From positions 1-64,000 of the forward strand of contig NZ_FNOK01000053.1 of the NCBI RefSeq assembly GCF_900106995.1: a DNA stretch of 64,000 bases, read 5' to 3'. The notes below the pieces were generated by a model. That model saw nothing but the letters and a program-made list of their open reading frames with translations, ran no database searches and was not told where the DNA came from. Positions 18,206-45,293 of this stretch are shown piece after piece. This DNA comes from Saccharopolyspora shandongensis (GTDB lineage: Bacteria > Actinomycetota > Actinomycetes > Mycobacteriales > Pseudonocardiaceae). The position numbers were made by a program, and so were the translations under genes. The number at the start of each line of letters is the position of its first letter. Positions within the stretch are counted from its first letter, which is position 1.

Positions 18206-18608
18206 GCGCCCGCTGGACACCTGGCCCACGCCGTGGAGTCCGCAGTTTCAATTGAGGTTTTTCCAACCTCGATTTGCGTGGCGGTGCGGGTGGCGGAACC
18301 TCAGAGGCTCCCTGGTCTGTGGGTGCCCCTCCTGATGTATGTCCGATACACGGCGTCAGGGCCGTCCTCGCCAGGAAGCCTCTGAGAACCCGCGGCGGTG
18401 CAGGTGTCGTAGGTGGGTTATGCGCCTGCGGCGCATGCGGCACCCCATCGACGTGCAGCTTTGCGACCTGCGGCTGCGGGCCGACCAGGATGAAAAACGC
18501 TCATTGAAACTGCGAGCGGGGACCGTGGGGATGGTGGCGGTCGACCGGTGATGCCGGGGTGGGGCGGCAGGTAGATTCCGGCGGGGTTCTCGTCTCGAGG
18601 AGGTCGTT
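18206..18608. other. Intergenic region largely filled by structured repeat copy A
   Basis: The 403 bases between rarA and the 2-hydroxyacid dehydrogenase gene contain the repeat at 18243-18512. The remainder (18513-18608) leads into the dehydrogenase and has CGAGGAGG as ribosome site; no gene is supported. Confidence 0.7.
18243..18512 (+). repeat. Structured dispersed repeat, copy A
   Basis: Copy A of a three-copy family (others at 27126-27387 on the minus strand and about 45100-45290). Ends: CAGTTTCAAT at 18243 and ATTGAAACTG ending at 18512 are exact inverted repeats. Stems seen: 16 bp with one mismatch between 18300-18315 (CTCAGAGGCTCCCTGG) and 18371-18386; nested 10-bp stem 18331-18340 with 18346-18360 (CCTGA/TCAGG and TGTAT/ATACA, a small internal bulge); terminal hairpin ATGCGCC-TGC-GGCGCAT at 18420-18436. 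Conserved blocks between copies include TTGCGTGGCGGTGCGG and GAGAACCCGCGGCGGTGCA. Confidence 0.85.
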
Positions 18609-19574
18609 GTGGACAAGCGGATCGTGGTCAGCCGGGTGGTTCCGGAGTCCGCGCTGGACGTGCTGCGCGAGGTCGGCGACGTGCACGTCTGCCCGCAGGA
18701 CCGGCCGCTGACCGCGCCCGAGCTGCGCGAGGCGGTGCGCGGCGCGCACGCGATCGTCACGATGCTGCACGACCGGGTCGACGCCGAGCTCGTCGAGGCC
18801 GCCGGCCCGCAGCTGGAGGTGGTCGCGAACGTGGCGGTCGGTTACGACAACGTCGACGTCCCGGCCGTGACCGGGCGCGGCGTCACCGTCACCAACACGC
18901 CCGGCGTGCTCGTCGACGCGACCGCCGACCTGACCATCGGGTTGCTGCTGATGGCGACCCGGCGGCTCGGCGAGGGCGAACGGCTGCTGCGGTCGCGCCG
19001 GCCGTGGACCTTCCACCTCGGCTTCATGCTCGGCGCCGGGTTGCAGGGCAAGACGCTCGGCATCGTCGGGCTCGGCGACATCGGGCAGGCCGTGGCCCGG
19101 CGGGCCCGCGCGTTCGGGATGGACATCGCCTACACCGGCCGCCGCCGCGTCGCCGCGGACGTGGAGGCCGAACTCGACGCCCGCTTCCTGACCAAGGACG
19201 AGCTGCTGCGCACCGCCGACGTGGTGTCCCTGCACTGCCCGCTGACCGAGCAGACCCGGCACCTCATCGACGAGGCGGCGCTCGCGGCCATGAAGCCGAC
19301 CGCGTTCCTGATCAACACCAGTCGCGGCCCCGTGGTCGACGAGGGCGCGCTGGCCAAGGCCCTCCACGAGCACCGGATCGGCGGCGCGGCCCTCGACGTC
19401 TTCGAGCGCGAGCCCGAGGTGGAGCCCGCGCTGCTCGACCTCGACAACGTCGTGGTGGTGCCGCACCTGGGATCGGCGACCACCGAGACGCGAACCGCGA
19501 TGGCCGAGCTCGCCGCCCGCAACGCCGCCGCGGTCCTCAGCGGCCGGGAACCGCTTAACCCGGTCCGCTCGTAA
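18609..19574 (+). CDS. D-isomer-specific 2-hydroxyacid dehydrogenase
   Basis: A 321 aa NAD(P)-dependent dehydrogenase of the glyoxylate/hydroxypyruvate reductase group. The Rossmann motif is GLGDIGQAVARRA (about residues 155-167), the catalytic region NTSRGPVVDEGAL (about 237), and the catalytic His is in VVPHLGSATTETR (about 286). Precise substrate cannot be read from sequence. The GTG start has CGAGGAGG nine bases upstream. It stands alone between the repeat element and the alaS operon. Confidence 0.9.
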   Translation: MDKRIVVSRVVPESALDVLREVGDVHVCPQDRPLTAPELREAVRGAHAIVTMLHDRVDAELVEAAGPQLEVVANVAVGYDNVDVPAVTGRGVTVTNTPGVLVDATADLTIGLLLMATRRLGEGERLLRSRRPWTFHLGFMLGAGLQGKTLGIVGLGDIGQAVARRARAFGMDIAYTGRRRVAADVEAELDARFLTKDELLRTADVVSLHCPLTEQTRHLIDEAALAAMKPTAFLINTSRGPVVDEGALAKALHEHRIGGAALDVFEREPEVEPALLDLDNVVVVPHLGSATTETRTAMAELAARNAAAVLSGREPLNPVRS

Positions 19575-19938
19575 CACGATCGGTTCGAGATGCGCGGGTC
19601 GACCGGCTCGTCCGCATGCGGTGCGGGACTCGGCTTGCGCCGCCGCGGGTCGGCTCTCGGCGAGGGCGGCGCGAGTCGGGCCGCCCTCGCCCAGGCGGCT
19701 TCCGGGGTTCCGCCAGCCACGCCGCCGCGTTCTCGTTCGTCAAATTGTTTGTCGAAGGGCGCCGCTCGTTCGCGGATCGGCGCCCAGGTCGGATGGGCGC
19801 GCCGCCCGGCGGTGCCCTCCCGCGGGCGTGGCCGACCGGGTGCGAGAGTGAGGATCGGGGCCGGTAACCTGACGCACGATCAACGGACCGGGCCGCGAGC
19901 TCGGTCCTACCGAATGACGTGGACATACGGGAGGGCAC
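19575..19938. other. Intergenic region before the DUF948-alaS operon
   Basis: About 364 bases. It presumably holds the promoter of the operon that includes alaS. Several short open frames are shadows of GC-rich DNA. A possible -10 (GTAACCT near 19863) lies upstream of a roughly 70-base leader. Nothing else is recognised. Confidence 0.45.
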
Positions 19939-20346
19939 GTGACGCCCACGCAGATCGCCGCGCTGATCGCCGCCGGAGCGTTCGTGCTGCTGGTCGTGCT
20001 GCTGGCGATCCCGCTGATCAAGCTCGGCCGCACGCTGGACGAGGCGACCATCGCGATCCGCAAGGCGCACGAGAACTCCGATCCGCTGTTCACCGGGGCG
20101 AACTCGACCATCACGCACGTCAACACCCAGCTGGAGCGCGTCGACGGGATCACCGCCAACGCCAAGACGATCAGCGGCAACGTCTCGGCGTTGTCCTCGC
20201 TGTTCACGGCTACACTGGGTGGCCCGTTGGTGAAGACGGCGGCGTTCTCCTACGGGGTCAGCAAGGCCCTGCGGGCCCGCCGGAAGCGGCGGCAGGAGCC
20301 TGCTGGCCGGCACTTCCGCCGCAAGGGCAAAGGGGGGCGCAAGTGA
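19939..20346 (+). CDS. DUF948-domain membrane protein
   Basis: A 135 aa protein with one N-terminal membrane segment (about residues 7-27, ALIAAGAFVLLVVLLAIPLI), a helical middle (LDEATIAIRKAHENSD) typical of DUF948, and a very basic C-terminus. Function is unknown. GGGAGGG lies just upstream of the GTG start. The stop overlaps the start of the next gene (GTGA), and this pair regularly precedes alaS in actinobacteria, so an operon is likely. Confidence 0.85.
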   Translation: MTPTQIAALIAAGAFVLLVVLLAIPLIKLGRTLDEATIAIRKAHENSDPLFTGANSTITHVNTQLERVDGITANAKTISGNVSALSSLFTATLGGPLVKTAAFSYGVSKALRARRKRRQEPAGRHFRRKGKGGRK

Positions 20347-20657
20347 GGCGCCTGTTCTGGTTCGGCGCCGGTGTCGCGGCCGGTGTCGCGGTGGCGCGCA
20401 AGCTCAACGAGACCGCCCGCAAGGCGACTCCGAGCGGCATGGCCGAGCAGCTGGGCGGCGCGGTCCGGGAGCTGGCCGGCGCGGTCGGCTCCTTCGGTGC
20501 CGAGGTGCGCGCGGGAATGCAGGAGCGGGAGCAGGAGCTGCACGACGTCGTCGAGCGCGGCAGCGCCGCGGACACGGTGCAGTTCCGCCGGATCGACGCC
20601 CCGATCGCCGACGAGGGCGCGGCCGGCAGTCGGCGAGCTCGCCGGGCGGGCCGCTGA
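20343..20657 (+). CDS. DUF6167-like small protein
   Basis: A 104 aa protein with a short hydrophobic N-terminus ([18 protein letters not shown]), a helical region and a charged C-terminus. The GTG start overlaps the preceding stop by four bases, which fixes the frame. It is the usual small gene between the DUF948 gene and alaS in this group of bacteria. No function is known. The family name is from memory of this gene neighbourhood and is less certain than the gene itself. Confidence 0.7.
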
Positions 20658-20733
20658 CGCCGGCGCCTTGGCGCCACCAGCCGTCCGCCGGTACCCCAAG
20701 CCGTCTCCGTCACCCGAGTTCCGAGGACCCACC

Positions 20734-23406
20734 GTGCAGACCCACGAGATCAACACCCGGTTCACCGAGCACTTCCGCGGCCGCGGCCACACCGTGGTGC
20801 CCAGCGCGTCGCTGATCCTGGACGACCCGACGCTGCTGTTCGTCAACGCCGGGATGGTTCAGTTCAAGCCCTACTTCCTGGGCGAGGCGCCGGCCCCGTA
20901 CCCGCGGGCCACCAGCATCCAGAAGTGCGTGCGCACCGGCGACATCGACGAGGTCGGCAAGACGACCCGGCACAACACGTTCTTCCAGATGGCGGGCAAC
21001 TTCTCCTTCGGCGATTACTTCAAAGAAGGCGCCATGGGGTTCGCCTGGGAGCTGCTCACCAAGTCCCAGGCCGACGGCGGCTACGGCTTCGACCCGGAGC
21101 GGCTGTGGGTGACCGTCTACGAGAAGGACGACGAGGCAGCCCAGCTGTGGCAGCGGGTCGCCGGCGTGCCCACCGAGCGGATCCAGGCCCGCGACGGCAA
21201 GGACAACTACTGGGACATGGGCGTGCCCGGTCCCGGCGGCCCGTGCTCGGAGATCTACTACGACCGCGGCCCGAAGTACGGCCGCGAGGGCGGCCCGATC
21301 GCCGACGAGGACCGCTACATCGAGATCTGGAACCTGGTGTTCATGCAGGACATCAGGGGTGAGCAGTCGCCGAAGCTGGGACACCCGCCGATCGGCACGC
21401 TGCCGACCAAGAACATCGACACCGGCATGGGCGTCGAGCGGGTGGCGTGCCTGCTGCAGGGCGTGGAGAACGTCTACGAGACCGACCTGGTCCGCCCGGT
21501 GATCGCCAAGGCCGAGGAGCTCTCCGGCCGCCGCTACGGCGCGAACCACGAGGACGACGTGCGGTTCCGCGTCATCGCCGACCACGCCCGCTCCGGCGTG
21601 ATGCTGGTCGGCGACGGCGTCACCCCCGGCAACGAGGCCCGCGGCTACGTGCTGCGGCGGTTGCTGCGCCGGATCATCCGCTCCACCCGCCTGCTGGGCG
21701 TGCAGGAGCCGGTGCTCGGCGAGTTCAGCAAGGTCGTGCGCGACGCGATGGCGCCGAGCTACCCGGAGCTGGTCACCGAGTTCGACCGCATCGACTCGGT
21801 GATGCGCAACGAGGAAGAGGCCTTCCTGACCACCCTGACGGCGGGCTCGAAGATCTTCGACGTCGCGGTGGCCGAGACGAAGAAGGCCGGCGGCAAGCAG
21901 CTGGGCGGTGAGCAGGCCTTCCAGCTGCACGACACCTACGGCTTCCCGATCGACCTGACGCTGGAGATGGCCTCCGAGCAGGGCCTGACCGTCGACGAGC
22001 AGGGCTTCCGGAACCTGATGGCCGAGCAGCGCCGCCGGGCCAAGGAGGACGCCAAGGCCCGCAAGACCGGCCACGGTGACCTGTCGACCTACCGGACGCT
22101 GCTGGACCAGCACGGCACCACCGAGTTCATCGGCTACACCGACCTGCAGTCGCACAGCCGGGTGCTGGGCCTGCTGGTCGACGGCCAGCCGGTGAAGTCC
22201 GCCGCCGCGGGCACCGAGATCGAGCTGGTCCTGGACCGCACCCCGTTCTACGCCGAGGGCGGTGGCCAGATCGCCGACACCGGCCGGCTGGTCGGTCCCG
22301 GGGTGGCCGTCGAGGTGCACGACGTGCAGCGCGCGGTCCCGGGCCTGTTCGTGCACCGCGCCAAGGTCGTCGAGGGCGAGCTCGGCGTGGACACCACGCT
22401 GGAGGCCGCCGTCGACGTCGCGCGGCGCCACGCGATCGAGCGGTCGCACTCCGCCACCCACCTCGTGCACGCGGCGGTGCGCAGCGCCTACGGCAAGCGC
22501 GCCGCGCAGGCCGGTTCGCTGAACTCGCCCGGCCGGATGCGCTTCGACTTCACCGCCCCGTCCGCGGTGTCGACCGCCGTCCTCACCGGGGTCGAGGAAG
22601 AGGTCAACGACTACCTGCAGAGCGACATCGAGGTGCAGGCCTACACCACGACGATGGACCGGGCCATGGAGCTCGGCGCCGTCGCGCTGTTCGGCGAGAA
22701 GTACGGCGACCAGGTGCGCGTCGTCGACATGGGCGACTACTCCCGCGAGCTGTGCGGCGGCACCCACGTGCCGCGCATCGGCCGCCTAGGCGTGGTCAAG
22801 CTGGTCGCGGACTCCTCCGTGGGTTCCGGCGTGCACCGCGTCGAAGCGCTGGTCGGCATGGACGCGATGCGCCACATCAGCAAGGAGCACCTGCTGGTCA
22901 GCCAGCTCGCCGAGCAGTTCAAGGTGCCGTCCGACGAGCTTCCGGAGCGCATCCAGGGCGTGGTGTCCCGGCTGCGCAGCGCGGAGAAGGAGCTGCACCA
23001 GCTGCGCATCGCGCAGGTCCTGCAGTCCGCGGGCGAGCTCGCCGACAAGGGCACCGACGTGCACGGCGTGACGCTGGTGGCCGAGCAGGTGCCGGACGGC
23101 GTGGACGGCAACGCGCTGCGCGCGCTGGCCGGGGAGATCCGCGGCCGGCTCGGCTCCCGCCCGTCCGTGGTGGCGCTGTTCTCCGCCGAAGAGGGCAAGG
23201 TCAGCTTCGTGGTCGGCGCCAACGACGCCGCGCGGGACAAGGGCATCGCGGCGGGCAAGCTGGTGCCCGGCTTCGCGGCCGAGGTCGGCGGGCGCGGCGG
23301 CGGCAAGCCGGACATGGCGCAGGGCGGCGGCACGAACCCCGCGGGTATCACCGCGGCGATCGCGGCGCTGCGCACGGCCCTGGATCAGGTGGTGGCTGGC
23401 GGGTGA
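20734..23406 (+). CDS. alaS: Alanine--tRNA ligase
   Basis: An 890 aa class II synthetase with full domain set: N-terminal catalytic domain ([39 protein letters not shown]), tRNA-recognition region, editing domain with [12 protein letters not shown] and [10 protein letters not shown] supplying the zinc ligands that clear Ser- or Gly-tRNA-Ala, and the C-Ala domain at the end ([12 protein letters not shown]). GTG at 20734 gives the normal N-terminus; the longer open frame overlaps the previous gene and is a shadow. It overlaps ruvX by four bases. Confidence 0.97.
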
Positions 23407-23873
23407 CCGAACACCGGCAGGCGGAACCCGGACCGGGACGTCGGCTCGGCGTCGACGTGGGTGCGGTCCGGGTCGGTGTCGCGCTCAGCGACCCCGCCCC
23501 GATGCTGGCGACCCCGCTGGTCACCCTGCGGCGGGATGCCGACGGCGACACCGATCTCGCGCAGCTGGCCGAGCTCGTCGCCGAACACGAGGTGGTGGAA
23601 GTCGTGGTCGGCCTGCCCAAGACGTTGGCAGGCCGGCACGGAACCGCGGCGGAGACGGCGCAGTCCTACGGGGCGGCGCTCGCGGAGCGGATCGCGCCGG
23701 TGCCGGTGCGGTTCGCCGACGAGCGGCTGACCACCGTGACGGCCAGCCGGATGCTGTCGCAACGCGGAGTACGGGGGAAGAAGCAGCGAGCCGTGGTCGA
23801 CCAGGCGGCCGCGGTGGAGATATTGCAGGCGTTCCTGGACAGTCGGGGGAAGACACGAGAGGACCTTTCGTGA
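23403..23873 (+). CDS. ruvX: Putative pre-16S rRNA nuclease / Holliday junction resolvase YqgF
   Basis: A 156 aa RNase H-fold protein of the YqgF/RuvX family, thought to process the 5' end of 16S rRNA. Acidic active-site residues are in [15 protein letters not shown], the [11 protein letters not shown] and [11 protein letters not shown] motifs are present, and [14 protein letters not shown] closes the domain. It overlaps alaS upstream (GTGA) and mltG downstream (GTGA), showing tight translational coupling. Confidence 0.92.
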
Positions 23874-25072
23874 CCGACGATCTCGGATTGTTCGCGGACG
23901 AGCCCGACGAGCGGCAACGACGCGCCCCCGACCCAGAGCGGTTCCGCCGCCGCAAGCGGCGCCGCCTGGTGACCGCGTTGGCCAGCCTGTTCGTGCTGGT
24001 GCTGGTCGGTTGCGGCGTGCTGTACGCCACCAGCCAGCTGATGCAGATCGGTTCCTACGAGGACTACCAGGGCGAAGGTGCCGGTGACGTCGTCATCGAG
24101 ATCAAGTCCGGGGAGACCGTCAGCGCCATCGGGCGCAACCTCGCCGAACAGGACGTGGTGGCCAGCACCAAGGCGTTCACCAAGGCCGCCGAGGGCAACC
24201 GGCAGATCAACAGCATCCAGCCGGGCTACTACCTGATGCGCAACAAGATGTCCGGCGACGCCGCCGTGACGCACATCCTGTCGGCGGCCGCGAAGGTCGG
24301 CCGGGTGGACATCCGCGCGGGCATGCGGCTGGAGGACCAGCTGGCGCCCGACAACGGGCACACCCCGGGCATCCTGACCAAGCTCGCGGAGGCCACCTGC
24401 GCCGGCGAGAACCCCACCTGCGTCACCTCCGAGGAGATGCACCGGGTCGCCGCGACCGCCGACCTGGCCTCGCTCGGCGTGCCGCAGTGGGCGCTCGCCG
24501 ACGCCTCCAAGGCCGAGCCGAAGCGCCGGCTGGAGGGCCTGATCATGCCCGGCCTCTACGACGTGAAGCCCGGCGAGACCGCGGAGAACGTGCTCCGCGA
24601 CGTGGTCACCCGGTCCGCGGCGGCGCTCGAGGTCGCCGGATTGCCGAAGGCCGCCGAGGGCAGTCGCTACAGCCCGTACGAGCTGCTCAAGATCGCGTCG
24701 CTGGTGCAGAGCGAAGGCATCACCAAGGACTTCGGGCAGATCTCGCGGGTGATCCACAACCGGCTCGCGCCGCCCGCGATGCACCTCGGGCTGGACTCCA
24801 CGATCAACTACCCGCTGGACAAGCCGTCGCTGCTGACCAGGCCGGAGGATCGCGGGATAGACGGGCTGTACAACACGTACAAGAACTACGGCCTGCCGCC
24901 CACGCCGATCTCGGCGGTCAGCAAGGAAGCCGTGCAGGCGGCGGAGAAGCCGACCGACGGAACCTGGAAGTTCTTCGTGAAGTGCTACCCGGACGGCACC
25001 TCGTGCTTCGCCGACAACCAGGCGCAGCACGACGCCTACATCGACGAGGCACGGGCCCGTGGCGCGTTCTGA
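23870..25072 (+). CDS. mltG: Endolytic murein transglycosylase MltG
   Basis: A 400 aa YceG-like enzyme that cuts nascent peptidoglycan strands. After a charged cytoplasmic region there is one membrane segment (about residues 37-57, [19 protein letters not shown]), a LysM-like part ([20 protein letters not shown]), and the catalytic domain with [11 protein letters not shown] carrying the conserved Glu, then [19 protein letters not shown]. The arrangement matches known MltG proteins. It overlaps ruvX by four bases, and aroE begins within its last codons. Confidence 0.93.
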
Positions 25073-25913: not shown

Positions 25914-26089
25914 CCGCGGTTGACCAGCAGCGTCGTGGGACGCCACCCGAACGGCTCGTGAGCAAGGCGACGTGTGAAGAGCCGGACAGGTGATCACCGG
26001 CGGGGTAAACAAACGTCGCCCGGATTCTCGAGTCTCGGGCGCAACCGCGGTCTGCGGGGGCCGGTGATCGTCCGGTGGTGTTTGGCCTG

Positions 26090-26458
26090 TCAGGCGCGGT
26101 CGTGGAGAGTGACCTGGTAGCCGTCGGGGTCGGCGAAGGTGAATGTCCGACCGAAGGGGCCGTCGATCGGTGCGGAGACGATGGTGTGACCGTCGGCGAC
26201 GAGAGCATCGTGAATGGCCTGGACGTCGGTGGCGTGGAGCCAGATCGCGACACCGATGCCGGGCCGAGCAACGGATGCGAGATCGGTGCCGGGAACGACG
26301 TCGCGGAGTGCGAACGCGATCGGCTTCGTCTCGAAGACGACGGCGTGCGGAGGTCCGGCCTGCGAGCGGACGAGGCCGAGGTACTGCTCGTAGAACGCCT
26401 GTGAAGCGTTGAGGTCGCGCGCTTGGAGCGAGATGAAGTCGGGGCCGGTGGCGGGCAT
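26090..26458 (-). CDS. VOC-family (glyoxalase/bleomycin-resistance-fold) protein
   Basis: A 122 aa protein of the vicinal oxygen chelate fold. The N-terminal half begins MPATGPDFISLQARDLNASQ and the C-terminal half ends with FGRTFTFADPDGYQVTLHDRA, the usual VOC signature. It may bind a small molecule or metal; substrate is not predictable. It is divergent from a marR gene across two operators, which strongly suggests control by that regulator. Confidence 0.87.
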   Translation of the reverse strand: MPATGPDFISLQARDLNASQAFYEQYLGLVRSQAGPPHAVVFETKPIAFALRDVVPGTDLASVARPGIGVAIWLHATDVQAIHDALVADGHTIVSAPIDGPFGRTFTFADPDGYQVTLHDRA

Positions 26459-26476
26459 GATGATGCTCCTTCTTTC

Positions 26477-26494: not shown

Positions 26495-26505
26495 GGGGCA
26501 ATCTA

Positions 26506-26973: not shown

Positions 26974-27092
26974 CTCGTCCCCCGGCGCACGTCTCGCCGC
27001 GCCCGGATAGGAGTGCAGCCGAGCGTGAAAATCCGTGCGGGCGACCTCGAAAACCGACAGACCCCGACTACACCCTCTTCTGCGATGAGCCG

Positions 27093-27140
27093 AAAAACGC
27101 TCAACGGAAATCGAGTCTCCGATTTCCACTGAGCGTTTTT
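27093..27140. terminator. Long hairpin sharing the repeat-B end, possible marR terminator
   Basis: AAAAACGCTCA..GGAAATCG (27093-27113) pairs with CGATTTCC..TGAGCGTTTTT (27120-27140): 19 of 21 positions complementary, 6-base loop AGTCTC, followed by five T. It could end marR transcription. Its right arm is also the left terminal repeat of repeat copy B. Confidence 0.6.
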
Positions 27141-27387
27141 CATCTTGGCTGGTGACCGCAGCCGCGACGGCTAGCGGACCGTATCCCGGAAGCGGTCGCA
27201 TGCGCCGCAGGCGCATGGCCCACCTCTGCAGCTTGCACCGCCGCGGGTTCTCAGCGTTCGCCTGGCGAGGACGGCCCAACCGCCGTGTATTGGACATACA
27301 TCAGGTTGGGCACCCACAGTCCAGGCGGACGCTGAGGTTCCGCCACCCGCACCGCTACGCAAAACGAGGATGAAAAACGCTCACTGG
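27126..27387 (-). repeat. Structured dispersed repeat, copy B
   Basis: Copy B lies on the minus strand. Terminal inverted repeats 27126-27144 and 27369-27387 match at 18 of 19 positions. Main stem: 27250-27265 (CTCAGCGTTCGCCTGG) with 27321-27336, 15 of 16 pairs. Nested stem: GCCCAACC (27274-27281) with GGTTGGGC (27304-27311), perfect, and TGTAT (27286-27290) with ATACA (27296-27300). Terminal hairpin ATGCGCC-GCA-GGCGCAT at 27200-27216. Compared with copy A the stem bases differ but pairing is kept. Confidence 0.85.
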
Positions 27388-27412
27388 AATCGCGTGAGTT
27401 GTCCACATATGG

Positions 27413-27447
27413 CGAACGGCCCCTCCTCGGGATGGAGGGGCCGTTCG
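27413..27447 (-). terminator. Terminator of the HPr gene
   Basis: CGAACGGCCCCTCC (27413-27426) and GGAGGGGCCGTTCG (27434-27447) form a perfect 14-bp stem with a 7-base loop, 13 bases beyond the ptsH stop. Confidence 0.8.
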
Positions 27448-27459
27448 TGCTTCTCGGGG

Positions 27460-27729
27460 TCAGTTGTTGTCGAGGTCCGAGGCGACCAGCTGGGCGAGGT
27501 GGTCCAGCGCCGCTTCCGCGCCTTCGCCCTCGGCCGAGAGCACGACCTCGTCGCCGTGGCCCGCGCCCAGCGTCATCAGGCCCAGGATGCTGCCCGCCTC
27601 CACCGGCTCCGTGTCGTCCTTGCGGATCGTGATCTTCACGGACTGCGCTGCGGCGGCCTTGGCGACCAGTGCCGCCGGCCGCGCGTGCAGCCCGACCTTG
27701 CTTGCCACGGTGACCCGTCGCTCGAACAT
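27460..27729 (-). CDS. ptsH: Phosphocarrier protein HPr
   Basis: An 89 aa phosphoryl carrier of the sugar phosphotransferase system that takes phosphate from enzyme I and passes it to EIIA. The active-site His is in SKVGLHARPAALV (about residue 15). The regulatory-Ser region is SILGLMTLGAGHGDEV. It lies downstream of the EIIC gene, with 42 bases between, so dasR-like, EIIC and ptsH probably form one operon. The enzyme I gene is not in this window. Confidence 0.95.
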   Translation of the reverse strand: MFERRVTVASKVGLHARPAALVAKAAAAQSVKITIRKDDTEPVEAGSILGLMTLGAGHGDEVVLSAEGEGAEAALDHLAQLVASDLDNN

Positions 27730-37568: not shown

Positions 37569-37579
37569 TTCGGCACCCT

Positions 37580-38932
37580 TCAGTCGAGGTCGGCGTCGCG
37601 GGTTTCCGGGCCGCGCAGCGCGCCGATCGCGGTCAGCACCCCGCCCAGCACGATCAGCACGATCGGCGTGTACTCGTACGGCATGAGGCGAGTCAGGCCG
37701 AGCATGTAGAAGGCGTAGAACCCGGGGATGATCACGGCGAGGCTGTAGCCGATCCCGTAGCCGGAGGCGCGGACGCCGGTGGCGAAGCGCTCGATGATGT
37801 AGGTCGAGACGATTCCCCACGGCGACACGGTGAGCACCAGCGCGGCCGTCGCGTAGACCATCACCAGCAGCGTGCTCCCGTCACCTGCGGCCGCGCCGAT
37901 GGCCTCGCGGACCATCGCGACGAACGCGAGCGGTGCCAGCAGCACCGTCCAGATCCCGGAGAGGACGAGCATGCGGCGCCGTCCGAAGCGCTGGCCCAGC
38001 TGCGCCATCACCAGGTAGCCCACGGCGACGAAGACGTTCGCGACGAGCAGGCCGGTGTTCACCTCGGTGCTCGGCAGCCCGATGACCGCGGACAGCAGCG
38101 CGGGTGTCGCCGACAGCGTGGCCTGGACGGTGAACCACATGCCGGTCATCAGCAACAGCACCTGCAGCAGCTTGCGCCGGTGCTCGCCGGTGAGCAGTTC
38201 TCGCAGCGGCGACTTCGGCTTCTCCGCCCCCTGGACCCGCTTGAACGCGGCGGATTCCTCGACCTTCCGGTAGTAGAGCAGGAACCAGGCGGACAGCGCC
38301 GCGCCGACGAAGAACGGGATGCGCCAACCCCATTGCACGTAAGGGGAATCCGGGCTGCCGGCCGGGGCGAACTGGAAGGTGATCGCGACGACGATCGAGA
38401 TCGCGATGTAGCCCAGCGGGTAGGAGGCCGCGATCATGCCGCCGACCAGGCCGCGCAGGCGCTTCGGGCTGGCCTCCATCGCGAGCGGGTTCGCGCTGGA
38501 GTACTCGCCGCCCATGAACACGCCGCCGACGAACCGCAGCAGCAGCACCAGGATGATCGACAGCCAGCCGATCGTGGCGTAGCCGGGCAGCAGGCCCATC
38601 AGCAGGGTGCAGGCGCCGGCGCCGGCGACCGCGATCAGGGTGGCCCGGCGGCGGCCGGTGATGTCCGCGATCCGGCCGAAGATGATGGCCCCGACGGGCC
38701 GGCCGATCAGGGTGAGCGCGAGCGTCACGTAGGACAGCGTGGCCGCGACGGAGGCCGGGGTGTGCTGGGCCTGGAAGTAGGCGATGGCGGGGGTCAAGGC
38801 CACTACCGGCAGGTAGATGTCGAAGTAGTCGACGAAGAATCCGAAGCAGGCACCCTTCACGGCGCGCTTCGCCGGTGGGCTCAGCCGTTGCTGCTCGGGA
38901 TCGTTCGTGCGGTCGGAGAGATCAGTGGGCAT
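37580..38932 (-). CDS. MFS transporter of the metabolite:proton symporter type
   Basis: A 450 aa transporter with twelve membrane segments. The family loop GRIADITGRRRATLIA lies between segments 2 and 3, and GGEYSSANPLAMEASPKRLRG between 4 and 5 is typical of the metabolite:H+ symporter group that carries organic acids. Clustering with DUF1445 and HyuAB-like genes suggests 5-oxoproline, D-glutamate or a hydantoin as substrate. The operator at 39066-39080 lies upstream. Confidence 0.87.
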   Translation of the reverse strand: MPTDLSDRTNDPEQQRLSPPAKRAVKGACFGFFVDYFDIYLPVVALTPAIAYFQAQHTPASVAATLSYVTLALTLIGRPVGAIIFGRIADITGRRRATLIAVAGAGACTLLMGLLPGYATIGWLSIILVLLLRFVGGVFMGGEYSSANPLAMEASPKRLRGLVGGMIAASYPLGYIAISIVVAITFQFAPAGSPDSPYVQWGWRIPFFVGAALSAWFLLYYRKVEESAAFKRVQGAEKPKSPLRELLTGEHRRKLLQVLLLMTGMWFTVQATLSATPALLSAVIGLPSTEVNTGLLVANVFVAVGYLVMAQLGQRFGRRRMLVLSGIWTVLLAPLAFVAMVREAIGAAAGDGSTLLVMVYATAALVLTVSPWGIVSTYIIERFATGVRASGYGIGYSLAVIIPGFYAFYMLGLTRLMPYEYTPIVLIVLGGVLTAIGALRGPETRDADLD

Positions 38933-39065
38933 GGGGGAGCGCTCCTTGGCTCGGGCGAGCGAGGCGTGGCGCTTGCGCCGGTGTCGCGGACCGAGTTGGT
39001 CCGGTGTGGACAGTCGACGCTCCGGTGTGCTCGCGGGGCGGCCGCGAGTGGCCCGACTTTAAGAG

Positions 39066-39080
39066 TTCGTCAGACGATAA
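39066..39080. promoter_or_regulatory. FCD-GntR operator upstream of MFS gene
   Basis: TTCGTCAGACGATAA carries the same TCGTCAGACGA core as the two sites at 39833-39873. It lies between the MFS start (38932) and the end of the GntR gene. Confidence 0.65.
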
Positions 39081-39113
39081 TCAAGGCGTGCCGCGTCATC
39101 GGCCCGCTGTTCG

Positions 39114-39755
39114 TCAGTCGATGAAGTGGTTCTGCAGCGCTTCTTCGGCGTCGACGAGGTAGGCGTCCAGCAGTGTCGCCGCGCCCTCCACGTCGCCGGA
39201 GCGCAGCGCGTCGGCGATCTCCTCGTTGCGCTTGAGGAACGCCGAGTGGAACACCTGGGTGTCCTTCATGTGCGCGTAGGCGAGCCGGAACTCGGCGAGG
39301 ATCTCGCCGACCACCGCGTCCAGCCGCGCGCTGCCGGCCAGCGCGACGAGCGCCTCGTGGAACCTGATGCTGGCCGCCGCGACGTCGTCCCAGCGGCCCT
39401 TCTCGGCGGCCTCGCGGCCGTCGGAGATCGCGGCGGAAAGCCGGCGCAGCCCGGCGGGTTCGAGGCTGCGGATGTGCCGTAGGGCAGCACATTCGATGAC
39501 CCGGCGCACCTCGTAGAGGTCGGTGACGTCCTGTCGCGAGAGCTGCCGGACGAAGACGCCGCGGCTGAGCTCGTGGACCAGCAGCCGCTCCCGGATCAGC
39601 AGCCGGAACGCCTCGCGCAGCGTGCTGCGGGAGACGCCGTGCGCCTGCTTGACGCGCTCTTCGGACAGCCGCATGCCGGGCACGAGCTCGCCGGCGGCGA
39701 TCTCGGCGCGCAGCGCGTCGGCGACCCGGCTCGCGGCGCCGCTCGTGTCGCTCAC
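39114..39755 (-). CDS. GntR-family regulator with FCD domain
   Basis: A 213 aa regulator. Winged helix at about residues 10-75 (LRAEIAAGELVPGMRLSEER, HGVSRSTLREAFRLLI), then an all-helical FCD ligand-binding domain (DLYEVRRVIECAALRHI; metal-type His in RFHEALVAL). FCD regulators typically sense organic acids. Three copies of a 13-base palindrome flank it, which points to autoregulation and control of both the MFS-DUF1445 and the hyuAB-like transcripts. Confidence 0.9.
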   Translation of the reverse strand: MSDTSGAASRVADALRAEIAAGELVPGMRLSEERVKQAHGVSRSTLREAFRLLIRERLLVHELSRGVFVRQLSRQDVTDLYEVRRVIECAALRHIRSLEPAGLRRLSAAISDGREAAEKGRWDDVAAASIRFHEALVALAGSARLDAVVGEILAEFRLAYAHMKDTQVFHSAFLKRNEEIADALRSGDVEGAATLLDAYLVDAEEALQNHFID

Positions 39756-39832
39756 GTCGGTCTCCTCTGTCCGGCCGCGGCGGGCGCGCGCGGTTCGTGC
39801 AGTTTACCCGGCGGGCCTCGCGATACCCGCAC

Positions 39833-39849
39833 GGATCGTCTGACGATCC
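39833..39849. promoter_or_regulatory. FCD-GntR operator, perfect palindrome GGATCGTCTGACGATCC
   Basis: This 17-bp palindrome lies in the divergent region between the GntR gene and the hydantoinase A-like gene. The second copy centres 23 bases downstream. Confidence 0.72.
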
Positions 39850-39856
39850 GTTGCCA

Positions 39857-39873
39857 GATCGTCAGACGATCCG
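39857..39873. promoter_or_regulatory. FCD-GntR operator, GATCGTCAGACGATCC core
   Basis: Second copy of the palindrome, reading ATCGTCAGACGAT at 39858-39870. It is 43 bases before the hydantoinase A-like start and could block its promoter. Confidence 0.72.
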
Positions 39874-39915
39874 TACTGTCCCGGGTTGCGCTCCCCGTCG
39901 AACCGGAGGGTTCCA

Positions 39916-42009
39916 ATGGCAGATTCACGCGCGCTGCGGGTCGGGGTGGACATCGGCGGCACCTTCACCGACCTGGCGGTCCTCGACGACAGCGGGATCG
40001 TCGCCGTGGGCAAGGCGCTGACCACCCACCACGAGCCCGCGGCGGCGGTCGAAGCGGTGCTGCGGCAGGCGATCGCGGATCACCGGCTCGACCCGGCCGA
40101 CATCGCGACCGTCGTGCACGGCACGACCCTGGTGACCAACGCGCTGATCGAGCGCCGCGGCGCCCGCACCGCGCTGCTCACCACCGAAGGCTTCCGCGAC
40201 GTGGTCGAGATGGGCCGCGAACACCGGTACGAGCTCTACGACCTCGGGCTCGAACTGCCGCGCCCGCTCGTGCCCCGGCACCTGCGGTTCGGCGTGCGGG
40301 AACGGGTGCGCGCCGACGGCGCGGTGGTGACGTCGCTGGACGCGGCCGCCGTCAAGCAGCTCGGCGTCGAACTCGCCGCCGCCGGCGTCGAAGCCGTCGC
40401 CGTCTGCTTCCTGCACAGCCACACCAACGGCGAGCACGAGCGGCAGGCCAGGGAGATCCTCGAAGCCGCCGCGCCGGAGCTGCGGGTGGCGCTGTCCAGC
40501 GAGGTGAACCCGGAGATCCGGGAGTACGAGCGGAGCTCCACCACCCTCGCGAACGTCTACGTGCAGCAACTCGTCGAGGACTACCTCGCGGACCTGCGCG
40601 CCCGGCTCGGCGGGCTCGGGGTGCGCACCGATCCGCTGATCATGCTGTCCAACGGCGGCGTCGCGGCGATCGAGGTGGCGCGGCGGTTCCCCATCCGGAT
40701 GCTGGAGTCGGGACCGGCGGGCGGTGCGCTGGGCGCCGTCGCGTTCGGCCGGACCGCGCGGCGGCCGGACCAGCTGGCCTTCGACATGGGCGGCACCACC
40801 GCGAAGCTCTGCATGATCGAGCAGGACCGCCCGCTGATCACTCACACCTTCGAGGTGGACCGGGTGTACCGGCTGCGCGCCGGTTCCGGGCTGCCGGTGC
40901 GGGCGCCGGTGATCGACATGATCGAGATCGGCACCGGCGGCGGCTCGATCGCCCGCGTCGACCCGCTCGGCCTGATCACCGTCGGCCCCGACTCGGCGGG
41001 CTCGGAACCCGGGCCGGTGAGCTACGGGCGCGGCGGCACGCGGTGCACCGTCACCGATGCGGACGTCGTGCTCGGCTACCTCGACCCGGCCCGGTTCCTG
41101 GGCGGCGACATGCCGCTGGACGCGGCGGCCGCCGCGTCGGCGATCCGGGAACAGGTCGCGGACCGGCTGGGCGTGTCCGTCCCGGAGGCGGCGTGGGGCA
41201 TCCACACCACGGCGAACGAGAACATGGCCAACGCCGCCCGGGTGCACGCCATCGAGCGCGGGCAGGATCCAGGGCGGCTGCCGCTGTTCGTCTCGGGCGG
41301 CAACGGGCCGCTGCACGGCCCGGGCGTGGCGCGGGCGCTCGGGTCGCCCTCGATGGTCGCGCCGCCGGCCGCCGGGGTGCTCAGCGCGCTGGGCTTCCTG
41401 TCCGCGCCGATGTCGATCGACATCGTCCGGTCCCGGCACGCGCTGCTCGGCGAGATCGGGCTCGACGAGGCGCGGGCGCTGTTCGCGGAGATGGAAAGCG
41501 AGGGCGCCGAGGTGCTGACCGCGTCCGGGGTCGCGGCCGCCGACGTCGTCCACGAGCGGACGCTGGAGATGCGGTTCGTCGGGCAGGGCAGCGAGATCGA
41601 GGTGCCGGTCCCGCCGGTCGGCGACGGCTGGCGCGACGAGGTGCTGGCGAGCTTCCGGCGGCAGTACGCGCAGCGCTTCGGCACGGTCGCCCCGGCCGGC
41701 GTCGAGCCGGAACTGCTCACCTGGCGGGTCACCGCGCGCGGCCCGGAACCGGCCGCCCGGCTCGGCTTCGAGTCCACTTCGGACGGACGAGACGCGTTGA
41801 TCGGGCACCGCGACGCCTACTTCTCGCCGGACGGCTACGCGCCGACGCCGGTCTACGACCGCTACCGGTTGCGCCCCGGCGCGGTGCTGACCGGGCCCGC
41901 GCTCGTGGAGGAGCGGGAAGCGACGCTGCTCGTCCCGCCCGGTGCGCGCTGCACCGTCGAGGCCGACAGCAGCATCTTCGTCGAGTTCGCCGTGGGAGGT
42001 TCCCGATGA
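39916..42009 (+). CDS. Hydantoinase A/5-oxoprolinase N-domain-type protein
   Basis: A 697 aa ATP-dependent hydrolase subunit. The N-terminal ASKHA-type ATP site is VGVDIGGTFTDLAVLDD, followed by VHGTTLVTNALIERRG and the central FDMGGTTAKLCMI and GTGGGSIARVDPLG motifs. With the B subunit it should open a hydantoin or 5-oxoproline ring using ATP. ATG at 39916 has GGAGGG upstream. It overlaps the next gene by four bases. N-methylhydantoinase or acetophenone carboxylase-like activity are alternatives. Confidence 0.9.
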   Translation: MADSRALRVGVDIGGTFTDLAVLDDSGIVAVGKALTTHHEPAAAVEAVLRQAIADHRLDPADIATVVHGTTLVTNALIERRGARTALLTTEGFRDVVEMGREHRYELYDLGLELPRPLVPRHLRFGVRERVRADGAVVTSLDAAAVKQLGVELAAAGVEAVAVCFLHSHTNGEHERQAREILEAAAPELRVALSSEVNPEIREYERSSTTLANVYVQQLVEDYLADLRARLGGLGVRTDPLIMLSNGGVAAIEVARRFPIRMLESGPAGGALGAVAFGRTARRPDQLAFDMGGTTAKLCMIEQDRPLITHTFEVDRVYRLRAGSGLPVRAPVIDMIEIGTGGGSIARVDPLGLITVGPDSAGSEPGPVSYGRGGTRCTVTDADVVLGYLDPARFLGGDMPLDAAAAASAIREQVADRLGVSVPEAAWGIHTTANENMANAARVHAIERGQDPGRLPLFVSGGNGPLHGPGVARALGSPSMVAPPAAGVLSALGFLSAPMSIDIVRSRHALLGEIGLDEARALFAEMESEGAEVLTASGVAAADVVHERTLEMRFVGQGSEIEVPVPPVGDGWRDEVLASFRRQYAQRFGTVAPAGVEPELLTWRVTARGPEPAARLGFESTSDGRDALIGHRDAYFSPDGYAPTPVYDRYRLRPGAVLTGPALVEEREATLLVPPGARCTVEADSSIFVEFAVGGSR

Positions 42010-43727
42010 GCCGCGTCGATCCGGTGCTGGTCGGCCTGGTCGCCAACCGGCTGCACTCGCTGCTCGACGAGCAGCAGGCCGCCCTGGTGCACACCGCGTT
42101 CAGCCCGGTGGTGCGCGAATCCCTGGACCTGGCCTGCGCCGTGTTCAACTCGGCGGGGGAGATGGTGGGGCAGTCCAGCGGCGGCACTCCCGGGCACATC
42201 AACGCGATGGCCACCGGGATGCGGCACATCGTCGCCGAGCACCCGCCCGAGGTCCTGGCTGACGGCGACGTGCTGATCACCAACGACCCGTGGATGACCT
42301 CGGGGCAGATCAACGACATCACCATCGCCACGCCGGTGTTCCGGGGCGGGGCGCTGGTCGCGTGGTTCGCCAGCTGCTGCCACTCGCCGGACATCGGCGG
42401 CCGGATCCTGTCCGCGGCGGCCACCGAGGTCTTCGAGGAGGGGCTGCGGCTGCCGATCCTGAAGCTGCGGACCGCGGAGGGTCCTAATAGGACGCTGGAG
42501 CGGTTGATCCGGGCGAACGTGCGGACGCCGAACGAGACGATGGGCGACATCTACGCGCAGGTTTCGGCCAACCAGGTCGCCATCCGCAGCCTCGACCGGA
42601 TGCTGGACGAATTCGGCCTCGACGGCATCGACGAGGTCGCCGCCGAGATCATGCTGCGCTCCGAGCAGGCGCTGCGCGCGGCGCTGCGGGAGATCCCGGA
42701 CGGCAGGTACTCGGCGAGCATGGACTCGGACGGCTTCGACGGCGACGCGATCCACCTGGCCGTCGAGGTGACCGTCGACGGCGACGCCGTCCGCGTCGAC
42801 TACGCGGGCTCCTCGCCGCAGTCCCCGCACGGCGTCAACGTGGTGCTCAACTACACCCGGGCGTACACGTCGTTCGCGATCAAGGCGGCGCTGGCGCCGG
42901 AGGTGCCGCACAACGCCGGGTCGTTCCGGCCGGTGGAGGTCGTCGCGCCGCGCGGTTCGGTGCTCAACTGCGTCGAACCCGCGCCCGTCGCCTCCCGCCA
43001 CCTCGTCGGGCACTTCCTGCCCAGCCTGCTCTTCGAGGCGCTCCGCCCGGCCGTGACCGGCGGTCTTCCGGCGGTGAGCGCGGACGCACTGTGGATGACG
43101 GTGTGGCGCGGCGCGGGCATCGACGAGCCGCAGCCGTTCACGCTGACGGTCTTCGGCGCGGGCGGGACCGGCGCGCGGCCGGACAAGGACGGGCTGAACA
43201 CCACGGGTTTCCCGACCGGGGTGCGCGCCGCGCCGACCGAGGTGCTGGAAACCCTGACGCCGCTGGTGCAGTGGCGCCGGGAGCTGCGGCCGGATTCCGG
43301 TGGCGCGGGGCGGTTCCGCGGCGGCCTGGGGCAATCGGTGGAGGTGTCGCGGCACGGGCCGCACGGCTGGACCGTGAACGCGAACATCGACCGCGTCGAC
43401 TTCCCGGCCGTCGGCGCCGAGTCCGGATCTTCTGGCGCGCCAGGGGAATTCGTCGACGCGAGCACCGACCGGGAGCTGCCGCGCAAGCAGCTGGTCCGGC
43501 TCGGCGCCGACTCCCGGGTGCGGCTGCGCTTCCCGGGCGGGGGCGGCTACGGCCATCCGGAGGCCCGGCCGGTCGACCGCGTGCTCGACGACGTCGTCAA
43601 CGGCTACGTGAGCATCGACGCCGCGCGCGAGCTCTACGGCGTGGAGATCGAGTACACCGGCGACCCGGACGCGCTGGTGCGGCCGCCCGACTCCTACCGC
43701 GTCCGCAGCTCGACGCCGCGCCGTTGA
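42006..43727 (+). CDS. Hydantoinase B/5-oxoprolinase C-domain-type protein
   Basis: A 573 aa partner of the preceding protein. Family motifs are QSSGGTPGHINAMATGMRHI, NDPWMTSGQINDITI and CHSPDIGGR in the N-terminal half, and RFPGGGGYGHPEARP near the end. ATGA overlap with the A subunit indicates equal synthesis. The neighbouring DUF1445, MFS and FCD-GntR genes make the unit look like a complete uptake and degradation module for a cyclic amide. Confidence 0.9.
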   Translation: MSRVDPVLVGLVANRLHSLLDEQQAALVHTAFSPVVRESLDLACAVFNSAGEMVGQSSGGTPGHINAMATGMRHIVAEHPPEVLADGDVLITNDPWMTSGQINDITIATPVFRGGALVAWFASCCHSPDIGGRILSAAATEVFEEGLRLPILKLRTAEGPNRTLERLIRANVRTPNETMGDIYAQVSANQVAIRSLDRMLDEFGLDGIDEVAAEIMLRSEQALRAALREIPDGRYSASMDSDGFDGDAIHLAVEVTVDGDAVRVDYAGSSPQSPHGVNVVLNYTRAYTSFAIKAALAPEVPHNAGSFRPVEVVAPRGSVLNCVEPAPVASRHLVGHFLPSLLFEALRPAVTGGLPAVSADALWMTVWRGAGIDEPQPFTLTVFGAGGTGARPDKDGLNTTGFPTGVRAAPTEVLETLTPLVQWRRELRPDSGGAGRFRGGLGQSVEVSRHGPHGWTVNANIDRVDFPAVGAESGSSGAPGEFVDASTDRELPRKQLVRLGADSRVRLRFPGGGGYGHPEARPVDRVLDDVVNGYVSIDAARELYGVEIEYTGDPDALVRPPDSYRVRSSTPRR

Positions 43728-43728
43728 G

Positions 43729-43758
43729 GGTGGGGCGTCTTTGGGAAGGCGCCCCACC
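43729..43758. terminator. Terminator between convergent hyuB-like and DUF4232 genes
   Basis: GGTGGGGCG (43729-43737) and CGCCCCACC (43750-43758) form a perfect 9-bp stem with a 12-base loop. It can act for both converging genes. Confidence 0.7.
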
Positions 43759-43767
43759 ACGGGCGGA

Positions 43768-44427
43768 TCACCGCTCGCCGGTACCCGCCTCGATGCTCCG
43801 CACGGTGAGCTGGTTGCCGGGCAGCTTGTCGTTCGCGCAGCCGGATTCGGAGTAGTCGAACTCGATGAACATCGACGCCGTTTCCTGCGGCGGGTAGATC
43901 CGCAGGCCCTTGGCCGGTTCCGGGCGGCAGACGGCGGTCTCGTAGTTCTCGACGGTCGCGAATCCGATCACGGCGGAGGCCTTCTCGCCGGGCCGGAGGG
44001 TGATCGCCGGCCCCTTCTCGTCGACCCGGGCGGCGGGCGCGCCGATCTGGTGCCCGTCGTTGCCGCCGACGTAGGACACGCCCGGGAAGCCCTGGATCAC
44101 GCACTGGTCGCCGCTGGTGTTGGTGAAGATCAGCGGGCGGTAGGCGGTGCCGGCCGCCGCGCCGCCCTTGCCGAACGACAGCTGGAGATCCGTGGCCTTG
44201 CAGAGCCCGTTGTCGGGCTTCTGCTCCGGCCGGGAGCTCGCAGAGCCGGCGGCCGGGACCGTGGTTCCCGTCGAGCCGGACTCGGGCGACTCGGCGGGAG
44301 CCGAGTTCGCGGGCGGGTCCTGGATGACGGATCCCGGAGCCTGCGCGTCCGATCCGCCGGGGCTGCAGGCCGTCAGCCCGACGGTCAGCGCAGCCGCCGC
44401 GACCGCGAGAATCCTCGCTCGGATCAT
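43768..44427 (-). CDS. DUF4232-domain lipoprotein
   Basis: A 219 aa predicted lipoprotein. The signal peptide (MIRARILAVAAAALTVGL) ends at a TACS lipobox Cys near residue 21. A Ser/Pro-rich linker leads to a DUF4232 domain (LCKATDLQLSFG, QCVIQGFPGVSYVGG, GFATVENYETAVCRP). Such proteins are common and uncharacterised in actinomycetes. ATG at 44427 is chosen over one eight codons upstream because GGAGAGG precedes it. Confidence 0.83.
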   Translation of the reverse strand: MIRARILAVAAAALTVGLTACSPGGSDAQAPGSVIQDPPANSAPAESPESGSTGTTVPAAGSASSRPEQKPDNGLCKATDLQLSFGKGGAAAGTAYRPLIFTNTSGDQCVIQGFPGVSYVGGNDGHQIGAPAARVDEKGPAITLRPGEKASAVIGFATVENYETAVCRPEPAKGLRIYPPQETASMFIEFDYSESGCANDKLPGNQLTVRSIEAGTGER

Positions 44428-44508
44428 CGATTTCGCCTCTCCGTGCACCAATGTCGGCCGTAGGACGCGTGGTCGCAGGTGAGGTTGCCGGAGTTGTTCG
44501 ATCTGTGA

Positions 44509-45069
44509 TCAACGGCCGCCGAGGAGCCCGGCGACCAGCCCGCGGGCGTAGGCGGCGTCGAGATCGTTGGGGCGGAACAGGATGCGGTACATCATGGGGG
44601 CGACGACGTGGTCGATGACCGCCTCCGTGCCGGGCACGCCCTCGCCGCGTTCGGCCGCGCGGGCGAGGATGACGTCGACCTGCTCGGCCGCGTAGGCCGA
44701 GCACTGACCGGCGTTGCTGCCGTCCGGGTCGCCGAGCAGCGCGTCGCGGATGTAGGCGCGGCCCGGGGGAGAGGTCATCTCCTCCAGGAACTGCTCGGCC
44801 CAGCCCGTCAGGTCGGCGGCCAGGGCGCCCCGGTCCTCCGGCGGAGCCTCGGGGCGCAGCCGCTCGACCGCCACGTCCGACAGCAACTCCTGCAGATCGC
44901 CCCAGCGGCGGTAGATCGTCGACGGCGTGACCCCGGCGCGGGTTGCCACCAGCGGAACAGTCAGCGCGTCCCGGCCCGCCTCGGTCTCGAGCTCGCGCAC
45001 GGCGTTGTGCACCGCTTCCTGGACCCGGGCGCTGCGTCCGCCCGGACGCACCATCGGCTTCCTGCTCAT
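44509..45069 (-). CDS. TetR-family transcriptional regulator
   Basis: A 186 aa regulator. The N-terminal helix-turn-helix is in LTVPLVATRAGVTPSTIYRRW (about residues 38-58). The C-terminal helical domain matches the TetR_C group with the PPEDRGALAADLTGW start. Target genes are unclear: the nearest are the DUF4232 gene downstream and, upstream, the repeat copy C. No clean palindrome is seen at its start. Confidence 0.85.
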   Translation of the reverse strand: MSRKPMVRPGGRSARVQEAVHNAVRELETEAGRDALTVPLVATRAGVTPSTIYRRWGDLQELLSDVAVERLRPEAPPEDRGALAADLTGWAEQFLEEMTSPPGRAYIRDALLGDPDGSNAGQCSAYAAEQVDVILARAAERGEGVPGTEAVIDHVVAPMMYRILFRPNDLDAAYARGLVAGLLGGR

Positions 45070-45099
45070 GGCCCAACCTTAAGAGACGATTTCAGATTG

Positions 45100-45293
45100 G
45101 ATTTGCGTGGCGGTGCGGGAAGCGGAACCTCAGACGCCGTCTGGACTGTGGGATCCCCGACTTACGTATGACCAATACGCGGCTTCGGGGCTGTCCTCGC
45201 CAAGAGCCCAGGGGCGGGCCGCTGTCTGAGAACCCGCGGCGGTGCAAGCTGAGTCCCACACCGCATGCGGCTGACGCCGCATGCTGAAAAGCC
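45100..45293 (+). repeat. Structured dispersed repeat, copy C
   Basis: Third and most diverged copy, between the TetR gene start and the amidase 3' end. It keeps TTGCGTGGCGGTGCGG, GCGGAACCTCAG, CTGTGGG, GTCCTCGCCA and GAGAACCCGCGGCGGTGCA. Stems: CTCAGAC (45129-45135) with GTCTGAG (45224-45230); CCCCGA (45155-45160) with TCGGGG (45185-45190); CGTAT (45165-45169) with ATACG (45175-45179); terminal GCATGCGGC (45263-45271) with GCCGCATGC (45276-45284). An extra 15 bases or so lie in the 3' half. Boundaries are approximate because terminal repeats are degraded. Confidence 0.78.

Follow-up and report, generated by a model that had tools for sequence, protein, structure and literature searches.

The window analyzed in this work is a stretch of 64,000 nucleotides of Saccharopolyspora shandongensis (contig NZ_FNOK01000053.1, positions 1 to 64,000), and it contains three copies of an intergenic repeat. 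All three copies claimed by a sequence-only reading of this DNA are present, with pairwise blastn identities of 74-79%. The repeat occurs in high copy number, ranges over the genus, and has inverted-repeat ends, modular cores and stems that covary. It probably represents a non-autonomous mobile family of Saccharopolyspora, resembling a miniature inverted-repeat transposable element (MITE), with a conserved folded core that would act in cis on messenger RNA (mRNA). The limits of the copies listed below were set by the target duplications and by comparison with relatives.

18254..18502, + strand: copy 1, a palindrome-type element (GAGG...GCTC) of 249 bp; the empty site in genome G017 (locus L282) is CAGTTTCAATTGAAACTG
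18251..18253, no strand: left 3-bp target duplication ATT of copy 1, from the filled versus the empty site
18503..18505, no strand: right 3-bp target duplication ATT of copy 1, from the filled versus the empty site
18243..18512, + strand: copy 1 with both halves (18243-18253 and 18503-18512) of the 18-bp target palindrome CAGTTTCAATTGAAACTG
18300..18315, + strand: 5′ arm of the main stem P1 of copy 1, read from the sequence, with covarying pairs
18371..18386, + strand: 3′ arm of the main stem P1 of copy 1, read from the sequence, with covarying pairs
18420..18436, + strand: 3′ hairpin P3 of copy 1, with UA/AU and GC/CG in RNAalifold, outside the significant tree-null pairs
27131..27382, - strand: copy 2, a palindrome-type element of 252 bp; relatives have element-free palindromes at the orthologous place, e.g. 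G017 (L305)
27383-27385 and 27128-27130: target duplication AGT of copy 2
45082..45295, + strand: copy 3, an element of 214 bp whose 3′ arm carries an extra module; absent from G011, G005 and G021
45080-45081 and 45296-45297: TA flanking copy 3; a duplication of up to TTAA would fit
16850..18205, + strand: AAA+ ATPase of the MgsA/RarA kind, upstream of copy 1 (Pfam MgsA_C, E=3.4e-70)
18609..19574, + strand: D-2-hydroxyacid dehydrogenase, downstream of copy 1 (Pfam PF02826)
27460..27729, - strand: HPr of the phosphotransferase system, upstream of copy 2 (Pfam PF00381)
44509..45069, - strand: TetR-type regulator, its start adjoining copy 3 (Pfam PF00440, PF16859)
45325..46659, - strand: amidase, its end adjoining copy 3, which is antisense to it (Pfam PF01425)

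DNA searches of the source genome returned at least 41 matches each for copies 1 and 3 and at least 42 for copy 2, and copy 1 was found in at least 40 places at 87-100% identity. Ninety-nine stretches were taken (L009-L107), and a covariance model built from an alignment of 60 copies gave at least 150 matches in the same genome, all of those listed having E values of 7.5e-22 or lower. A census, in which whole stretches totalling 790,865 bp of this genome were counted (contigs C43, C52 and part of C58), yielded 24 matches of at least 59 bits and eight weaker ones, two of which are reverse-strand shadows. Extrapolation of this density (about 30 copies per Mb) gives approximately 300 copies for the 10.15-Mb genome. 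The G+C content of the census matches is 0.57-0.71, so they lack the A+T-richness that is usual, though not essential, for a MITE.

The covariance model found matches in 21 of the 22 Saccharopolyspora genomes, including the source genome. At E values of 0.01 or lower and with weak matches counted, there were 7 matches in G009, 8 in G018, 4 in G020 and 45 in G021; G019 had none at this threshold. None of the 19 genomes outside the genus matched (three representing other genera in the family, 16 drawn from elsewhere in the order), and under stricter filters the source genome was the only one of 396 genomes in a phylum sample to match. Among the matches listed in an exact-pattern scan, 78 of 80 came from Saccharopolyspora (ten species) and 2 of 80 from Amycolatopsis bartoniae, a possible case of horizontal transfer into another genus. 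The two Amycolatopsis copies (L199 and L207) lie downstream of a same-strand stop codon, at distances of 12 and 17 nt. The scan gave at least 101 stretches, and 21 of them beyond those listed (L247-L267) were also among the loci used. No match was found in the viral (exact pattern), plasmid (copy 3) or phage (copy 1) collections. The earlier reading had not recognized the repeat as a described family. Consistent with this, Rfam 15 gave no match in the window at the gathering threshold, and only two chance-level matches at a permissive threshold with copy 1 alone. No description of the repeat was found in the full-text literature, largely without subscription papers, by searches that included Saccharopolyspora by name, and the available portions of two S. 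erythraea transcriptome papers (PMC3610266, PMC3827479) name no such family. Further homologues, on which the claim of a structured element depended, exist both in the source genome and across the genus.

The ends of the repeat are those of a mobile element. The sequences on either side of copy 1 are CAGTTTCAATT and ATTGAAACTG, and in G017, where the neighboring gene is 97% identical, CAGTTTCAATTGAAACTG stands at the same place without an element as an exact empty site. Comparison of the filled and empty sites therefore defines the element as 18254-18502, with ATT duplicated inside the 18-bp palindrome. Copy 2 lies behind the HPr gene, also within a palindrome, with AGT duplicated, while copy 3 is bounded by ACCTTA and TAAAAC. 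The terminal inverted repeats are GAGGTTTTTC and GAGCGTTTTTC in copy 1 and, imperfectly matched, AGAGACGATTTCAG and AGGGCTTTTCAG in copy 3. The elements are short (214-252 bp), carry no protein gene and differ from one another by many indels. Some copies have GAGNGTTTTTC ends and others have ends like those of copy 3, so that a single folded core is associated with two or more kinds of ends.

A set of 271 unique copies, taken mostly best-scoring first and not as a random sample, comprised 88 with a palindrome-type 5′ end and 183 with other ends. Both ends could be placed in 61 of the 88 palindrome-type copies, and identical 3-mers were found at the ends of 41 of these 61, compared to a mean of 18.0 and a maximum of 29 in 2000 shuffles. 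In the hairpin class of copy 3 (n=42), TA was present at the left end in 23 copies and at the right end in 21, with 12 copies having it at both; the background frequency is 6.6% of windows. The targets of the palindrome-type copies are short A+T-rich palindromes (the flanks at 18243-18512; L282, L284, L295, L305, L309), which may resemble the parS site. Intergenic A+T-rich palindromes are abundant in Saccharopolyspora, in the forms CAGTTTCAATTGAAACTG, GTTTTCATGAAAAC and paired CGCAATTTCAATGGAAATC..., and the stretches around copies, 233,518 bp in all, contain 15 instances of the exact 18-mer CAGTTTCAATTGAAACTG.

The place of each copy was compared among genomes. At the place of copy 1, 21 loci with the neighboring gene (none from G009; L283 carries masked bases) contained a model element in two cases, the source genome and G013, and G002 has a deleted relic as judged by eye. 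At the place of copy 2, the 22 loci, of which L316 does not appear to be syntenic, contained an element in the source genome and in G004, where by eye it sits in another palindrome arm; G007 has a weak 28-bit match and G006 an apparent solo end, the latter also judged by eye. The neighboring gene of copy 3 was found in 6 of 22 genomes, including a partial match in G006. Besides the three genomes listed above that lack the element there, G017 retains only a left-end remnant, followed by a rearrangement. Given this pattern of presence and absence, the insertions tested turn over among species. The sequence-only reading was borne out as to a structured element, whereas it had not foreseen a mobile repeat; because the element is mobile, the likeness between copies reflects transposition and exchange.

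The nested stems named in that reading are present, and each copy keeps its own complementary arms; the main stem of copy 3 is shorter because the extra module sits in its 3′ arm. The fold is a rod of two paired parts separated by fixed mismatches, followed by a terminal helix and then by the 3′ hairpin, which is less well paired on the 101-copy alignment set described below. The arms are built of exchangeable modules and the cores are mosaic, with one module swap in place observed at the pdhA-pdhB site (L183/L056). Several copies (L054, L058, L064, L082 and others) have an added module on the 5′ side, GGCCCCCCTGCGGGAGTTACAG, together with one on the 3′ side that includes a CCCC-GGGG hairpin, and such extra core modules combine differently from copy to copy.

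RNAalifold analysis of 60 copies gave 43 pairs, 12 of which are maintained with double-sided changes. Covariation was measured on copies of simple architecture, those with extra modules being excluded (207 copies, of which 188 are unique and 101 remain after filtering at 90% identity), as G statistics with average product correction, and compared with 60 alignments re-simulated on a tree with the change counts of each column preserved. The top 10 of all column pairs fall on one nested diagonal (i+j=141), and six of these have E values of 0.017 or lower in the 101 copies. Pair 56-85, for example, is CG in 56 copies, GC in 18, TA in 11 and AT in 9, and pair 42-99 is GC in 66 and CG in 34. Standard pairs make up 0.68-1.00 at the ten pairs, and part of the covariation is not Watson-Crick. 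The mismatches within the rod are fixed (45, 47 and 50 against 96, 94 and 91), with T.C at 45-96 in 96 of 98 copies. These results uphold the compensatory base changes claimed earlier, in an element that is non-coding: the covarying pairs are significant against the tree null in an R-scape-like test of our own, R-scape itself not being used, and the stems are largely kept in the homologues (a mean of 24.2 of 27 pairs formed). Folding of single copies is the weaker evidence, with z=-4.35 for copy 1 and z=-0.58 for copy 3 with its flanks, so copy 3 alone is unconvincing.

The position of the copies relative to genes was determined with a simple caller of open reading frames, based on frame composition and made for this analysis. 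Of the 183 copies with other ends, 100 begin 6-31 nt behind the stop codon of a same-strand gene, 60 of them at 18-23 nt. The stops before these 100 copies are TGA in 63 cases, TAG in 21 and TAA in 16, compared to 785, 128 and 32 in all called genes; TA-bearing stops are thus enriched, yet the majority are TGA. Copies lying between tandem genes have the sense orientation in 109 cases and the antisense orientation in 45 (p=2.6e-7, the copies not being independent), and 16 of the 271 copies lie between divergent genes. In the census, a same-strand gene precedes 20 of 26 copies, and 13 sense and 4 antisense copies lie between tandem genes (one contig-end row skipped). Copies are located in the gaps ilvN-ilvC, gap-pgk, clpP-clpX and pdhA-pdhB, all between same-strand genes, and behind pstB. 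Co-transcription is usual for such gene pairs, and where it occurs the element cannot act as a complete terminator. On contigs C43 and C52, which have negative GC skew, the minus strand carries 19 of 23 elements and also most of the genes. A similar strand trend, with exceptions, was seen in G013, and strand clustering over all contigs was weak (p=0.056). A replication-linked orientation was dropped as an explanation because it is inseparable from the gene-sense bias.

These data give good support to a MITE-like family whose conserved fold is internal. In the mechanism that we propose, a DDE-type transposase encoded elsewhere would act on the ends, and insertions would persist mainly in intergenic DNA, often directly after a stop codon and in the same orientation as the gene. 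The co-transcribed fold could then act in cis on the mRNA through decay, processing or partial termination, as for ERIC, BOX and REP; we infer this effect from the place and orientation of the copies and from what is published on those families. Co-transcribed ERIC copies destabilize upstream mRNA in an orientation-dependent manner, according to the available parts of PMC2229807 and PMC10969869. BOX elements are over-represented between convergent genes, and in 36 cases the BOX itself supplies the stop codon that ends a gene (PMC3049150). The interior fold would be retained since amplifying copies must carry it, either because mobility depends on it, in the form of RNA or of folded single-stranded DNA, or because it makes insertions tolerable to the host.

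Several results weigh against this reading. A selected sense RNA should tolerate G.T more than A.C, and no excess of sense-strand wobble was observed: 45 inferred events led from a Watson-Crick pair to G.T and 77 to A.C, while the unpaired columns were unbiased (309 changes corresponding to the first kind and 312 to the second). By part, the G.T and A.C counts were 13 and 41 in P1, 8 and 13 in P2, 13 and 5 in the terminal helix and 11 and 18 in the 3′ hairpin; the strongest A.C lean is in P1, and the terminal helix leans the opposite way. The sequence-only reading had suggested a folded RNA or DNA structure under selection; from the covariation, a folded molecule does appear to be under selection at the level of the family, while the wobble test does not settle that the molecule is RNA. 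No autonomous partner with matching ends was found among the PF13358 and PF13359 hits, other transposase families (including the RAYT type) not being searched. The draft source genome has 12 hits to PF13358 (IS630-type), mostly fragments at contig ends, and one to PF13359, and ends were read for some of them only. One of 139 right ends in 2.4 Mb is without a core, and this one resembles an internal deletion; the two pairs of ends lying 500-3000 bp apart both enclose an ordinary core. An IS630-type copy in L279 (G000 contig C33) was rejected as a partner because it sits inside an element and represents an insertion into the repeat. In addition, the TGA-adjacent copies are mostly without TA at the left end, which leaves their target site unaccounted for. 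Tests for a duplication at the stop codon were mixed: the 4-mer was found in 26 of 98 copies compared to 20.0 after shuffling (p=0.056), another 4-mer test gave p=0.34, and the 3-mer and 5-mer gave p=0.0035. End words of 4, 5 and 6 nt in 42 copies gave p=0.046, 0.021 and 0.005. With these mixed results a 3-6 bp stop-codon duplication was dropped, and TA was retained for copy 3 and the hairpin class.

Paired loci bear on where selection acts. Thirty locus pairs share one flank and 16 share both; in 8 of these 16 the flanks are 81-97% identical and the core with its ends 52-63% (gaps counted). Two of these eight pairs, L002/L115 and L124/L018, are different insertions because one copy is palindrome-type and the other is not. 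In 14 orthologous-site pairs, of which three have loci in common and two are possibly separate insertions, the aligned core bases are 67-96% identical, which is below both flanks in 10 of the 14. On consensus columns, 80 of 860 unpaired positions and 135 of 749 stem positions differ. Of the changed pairs, 24 are compensated, 17 are kept after a change on one side, 56 are broken in one copy and 3 are unpaired in both; when each copy's own minimum free energy fold is used, 24 are compensated, 51 kept one-sidedly and 138 broken. This pattern fits selection mainly on spreading lineages, with possibly some constraint in place.

The same figures enter into an alternative that we consider possible though unlikely, namely that the repeat is a host regulatory RNA, a cis-element of the 3′ untranslated region or between cistrons at particular genes, for which mobility is only the route of spreading. 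The spacing behind stops and the sense bias would agree with this, as would the diverged copies that low-copy genomes carry behind stops and inside conserved gene pairs (L125, 43 nt behind ilvN; L128, 15 nt behind gap), the lower difference at unpaired core positions (80/860) than in stems (135/749), and the 24 compensated pairs. However, the sites are not conserved (an element in 2 of 21 loci for copy 1 and 2 of 22 for copy 2), core identity falls under both flanks in 10 of 14 pairs, and the broken pairs (56 by consensus, 138 by the copies' own folds) outnumber the compensated ones. Somewhat less likely again is that the fold is a cis-acting component of transposition, either an RNA or a single-stranded DNA hairpin, that is recognized by the transposase or serves as a guide, common to more than one kind of end. 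An interior that is conserved while the ends differ, the fixed rod mismatches and the missing sense-strand G.U tolerance, as expected for DNA or for the other strand, point in this direction; inverted-repeat ends with short duplications point instead to an ordinary DDE enzyme that needs the ends only, and nothing resembling a guide match of the core to its target was noticed, though no formal search was made.

A related proposal, which we regard as doubtful, is that the fold is itself a working part of the spread, a cassette mounted on at least two kinds of ends that guides or licenses insertion beside stop codons. The stems could also have arisen without selection, by template switching between the arms (quasi-palindrome correction) or by module exchange. 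Mosaic cores and the in-place swap at L183/L056 are of the kind this would produce, but internal mismatches stay fixed beside stems that change and yet are well paired (T.C at 45-96 in 96 of 98 copies), and the covariation exceeds a tree null that keeps column variability, although without exchange between copies. This explanation is improbable. Compared to these alternatives, the MITE-like family with a conserved core and a proposed effect on mRNA remains our preferred reading.

Among known systems, BOX of Streptococcus pneumoniae, which is composed of boxA, boxB and boxC, is similar in being modular and dispersed, with inverted-repeat ends and a strong fold when transcribed; it differs in its host, and the part of the source available reports no second kind of end (PMC3049150), the two being set apart by description and not by sequence. 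The Saccharopolyspora repeat is further distinguished from BOX by tree-tested covariation of the interior and by its position a short distance past a stop in 100 of the 183 copies with other ends. ERIC, RUP and Correia (NEMIS) elements are likewise small and non-autonomous, with inverted-repeat ends and a terminal TA, and in the accessible parts of the sources their fold is the pairing of both ends (PMC2229807, PMC10969869), whereas in the Saccharopolyspora repeat an internal fold is conserved and the ends vary; its G+C-rich composition (0.57-0.71) is a further difference. Phylogenetically conserved RNA secondary structure motifs are also described in intergenic regions of Borrelia plasmids in the available portion of PMC2674063, the sequences not being compared here.

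The placement behind genes recalls REP/BIME, as does the insertion of palindrome-type copies mid-way into abundant intergenic palindromes, although the Saccharopolyspora element itself is no such palindrome. REP/BIME palindromes are located behind genes, and insertion sequence (IS) elements insert in them. Elements derived from IS200/IS605 have hairpin ends and make no target duplication, which the 3-bp duplication at copy 1 does not fit. A bridge RNA of the IS110 kind, whose loops are complementary to target and donor and which goes with an IS110 recombinase, was considered only; inverted-repeat ends and target duplications argue against it. MITEs are commonly held to need only their ends. 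In this repeat it is the ends that vary and the interior fold that persists, so it offers a testable example of selection acting on the interior of a non-autonomous element. Structured mobile elements behind the stops of core genes (clpP, gap, ilvN, pdhA and pstB among the loci examined) could alter the fate of the mRNA, in a genus that includes producers of antibiotics and insecticides.

Some smaller features of the window accompany the copies. Directly behind copy 2, at 27091-27102 (- strand), there is a second GAGCGTTTTTCG end-like sequence beside another half palindrome, perhaps the remnant of a further copy. Copy 3 lies at the start of the TetR-type gene within a TTAAAGC...TTGCTTTTAG-like repeat (45079-45320; L336-L338), which could be the operator of this regulator. 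A terminator-like hairpin, ACGGCCCCTCC...GGAGGGGCCGT, is located between the HPr stop codon and copy 2 (about 27405-27460, - strand), and similar hairpins, as judged by eye, are present in many relatives.

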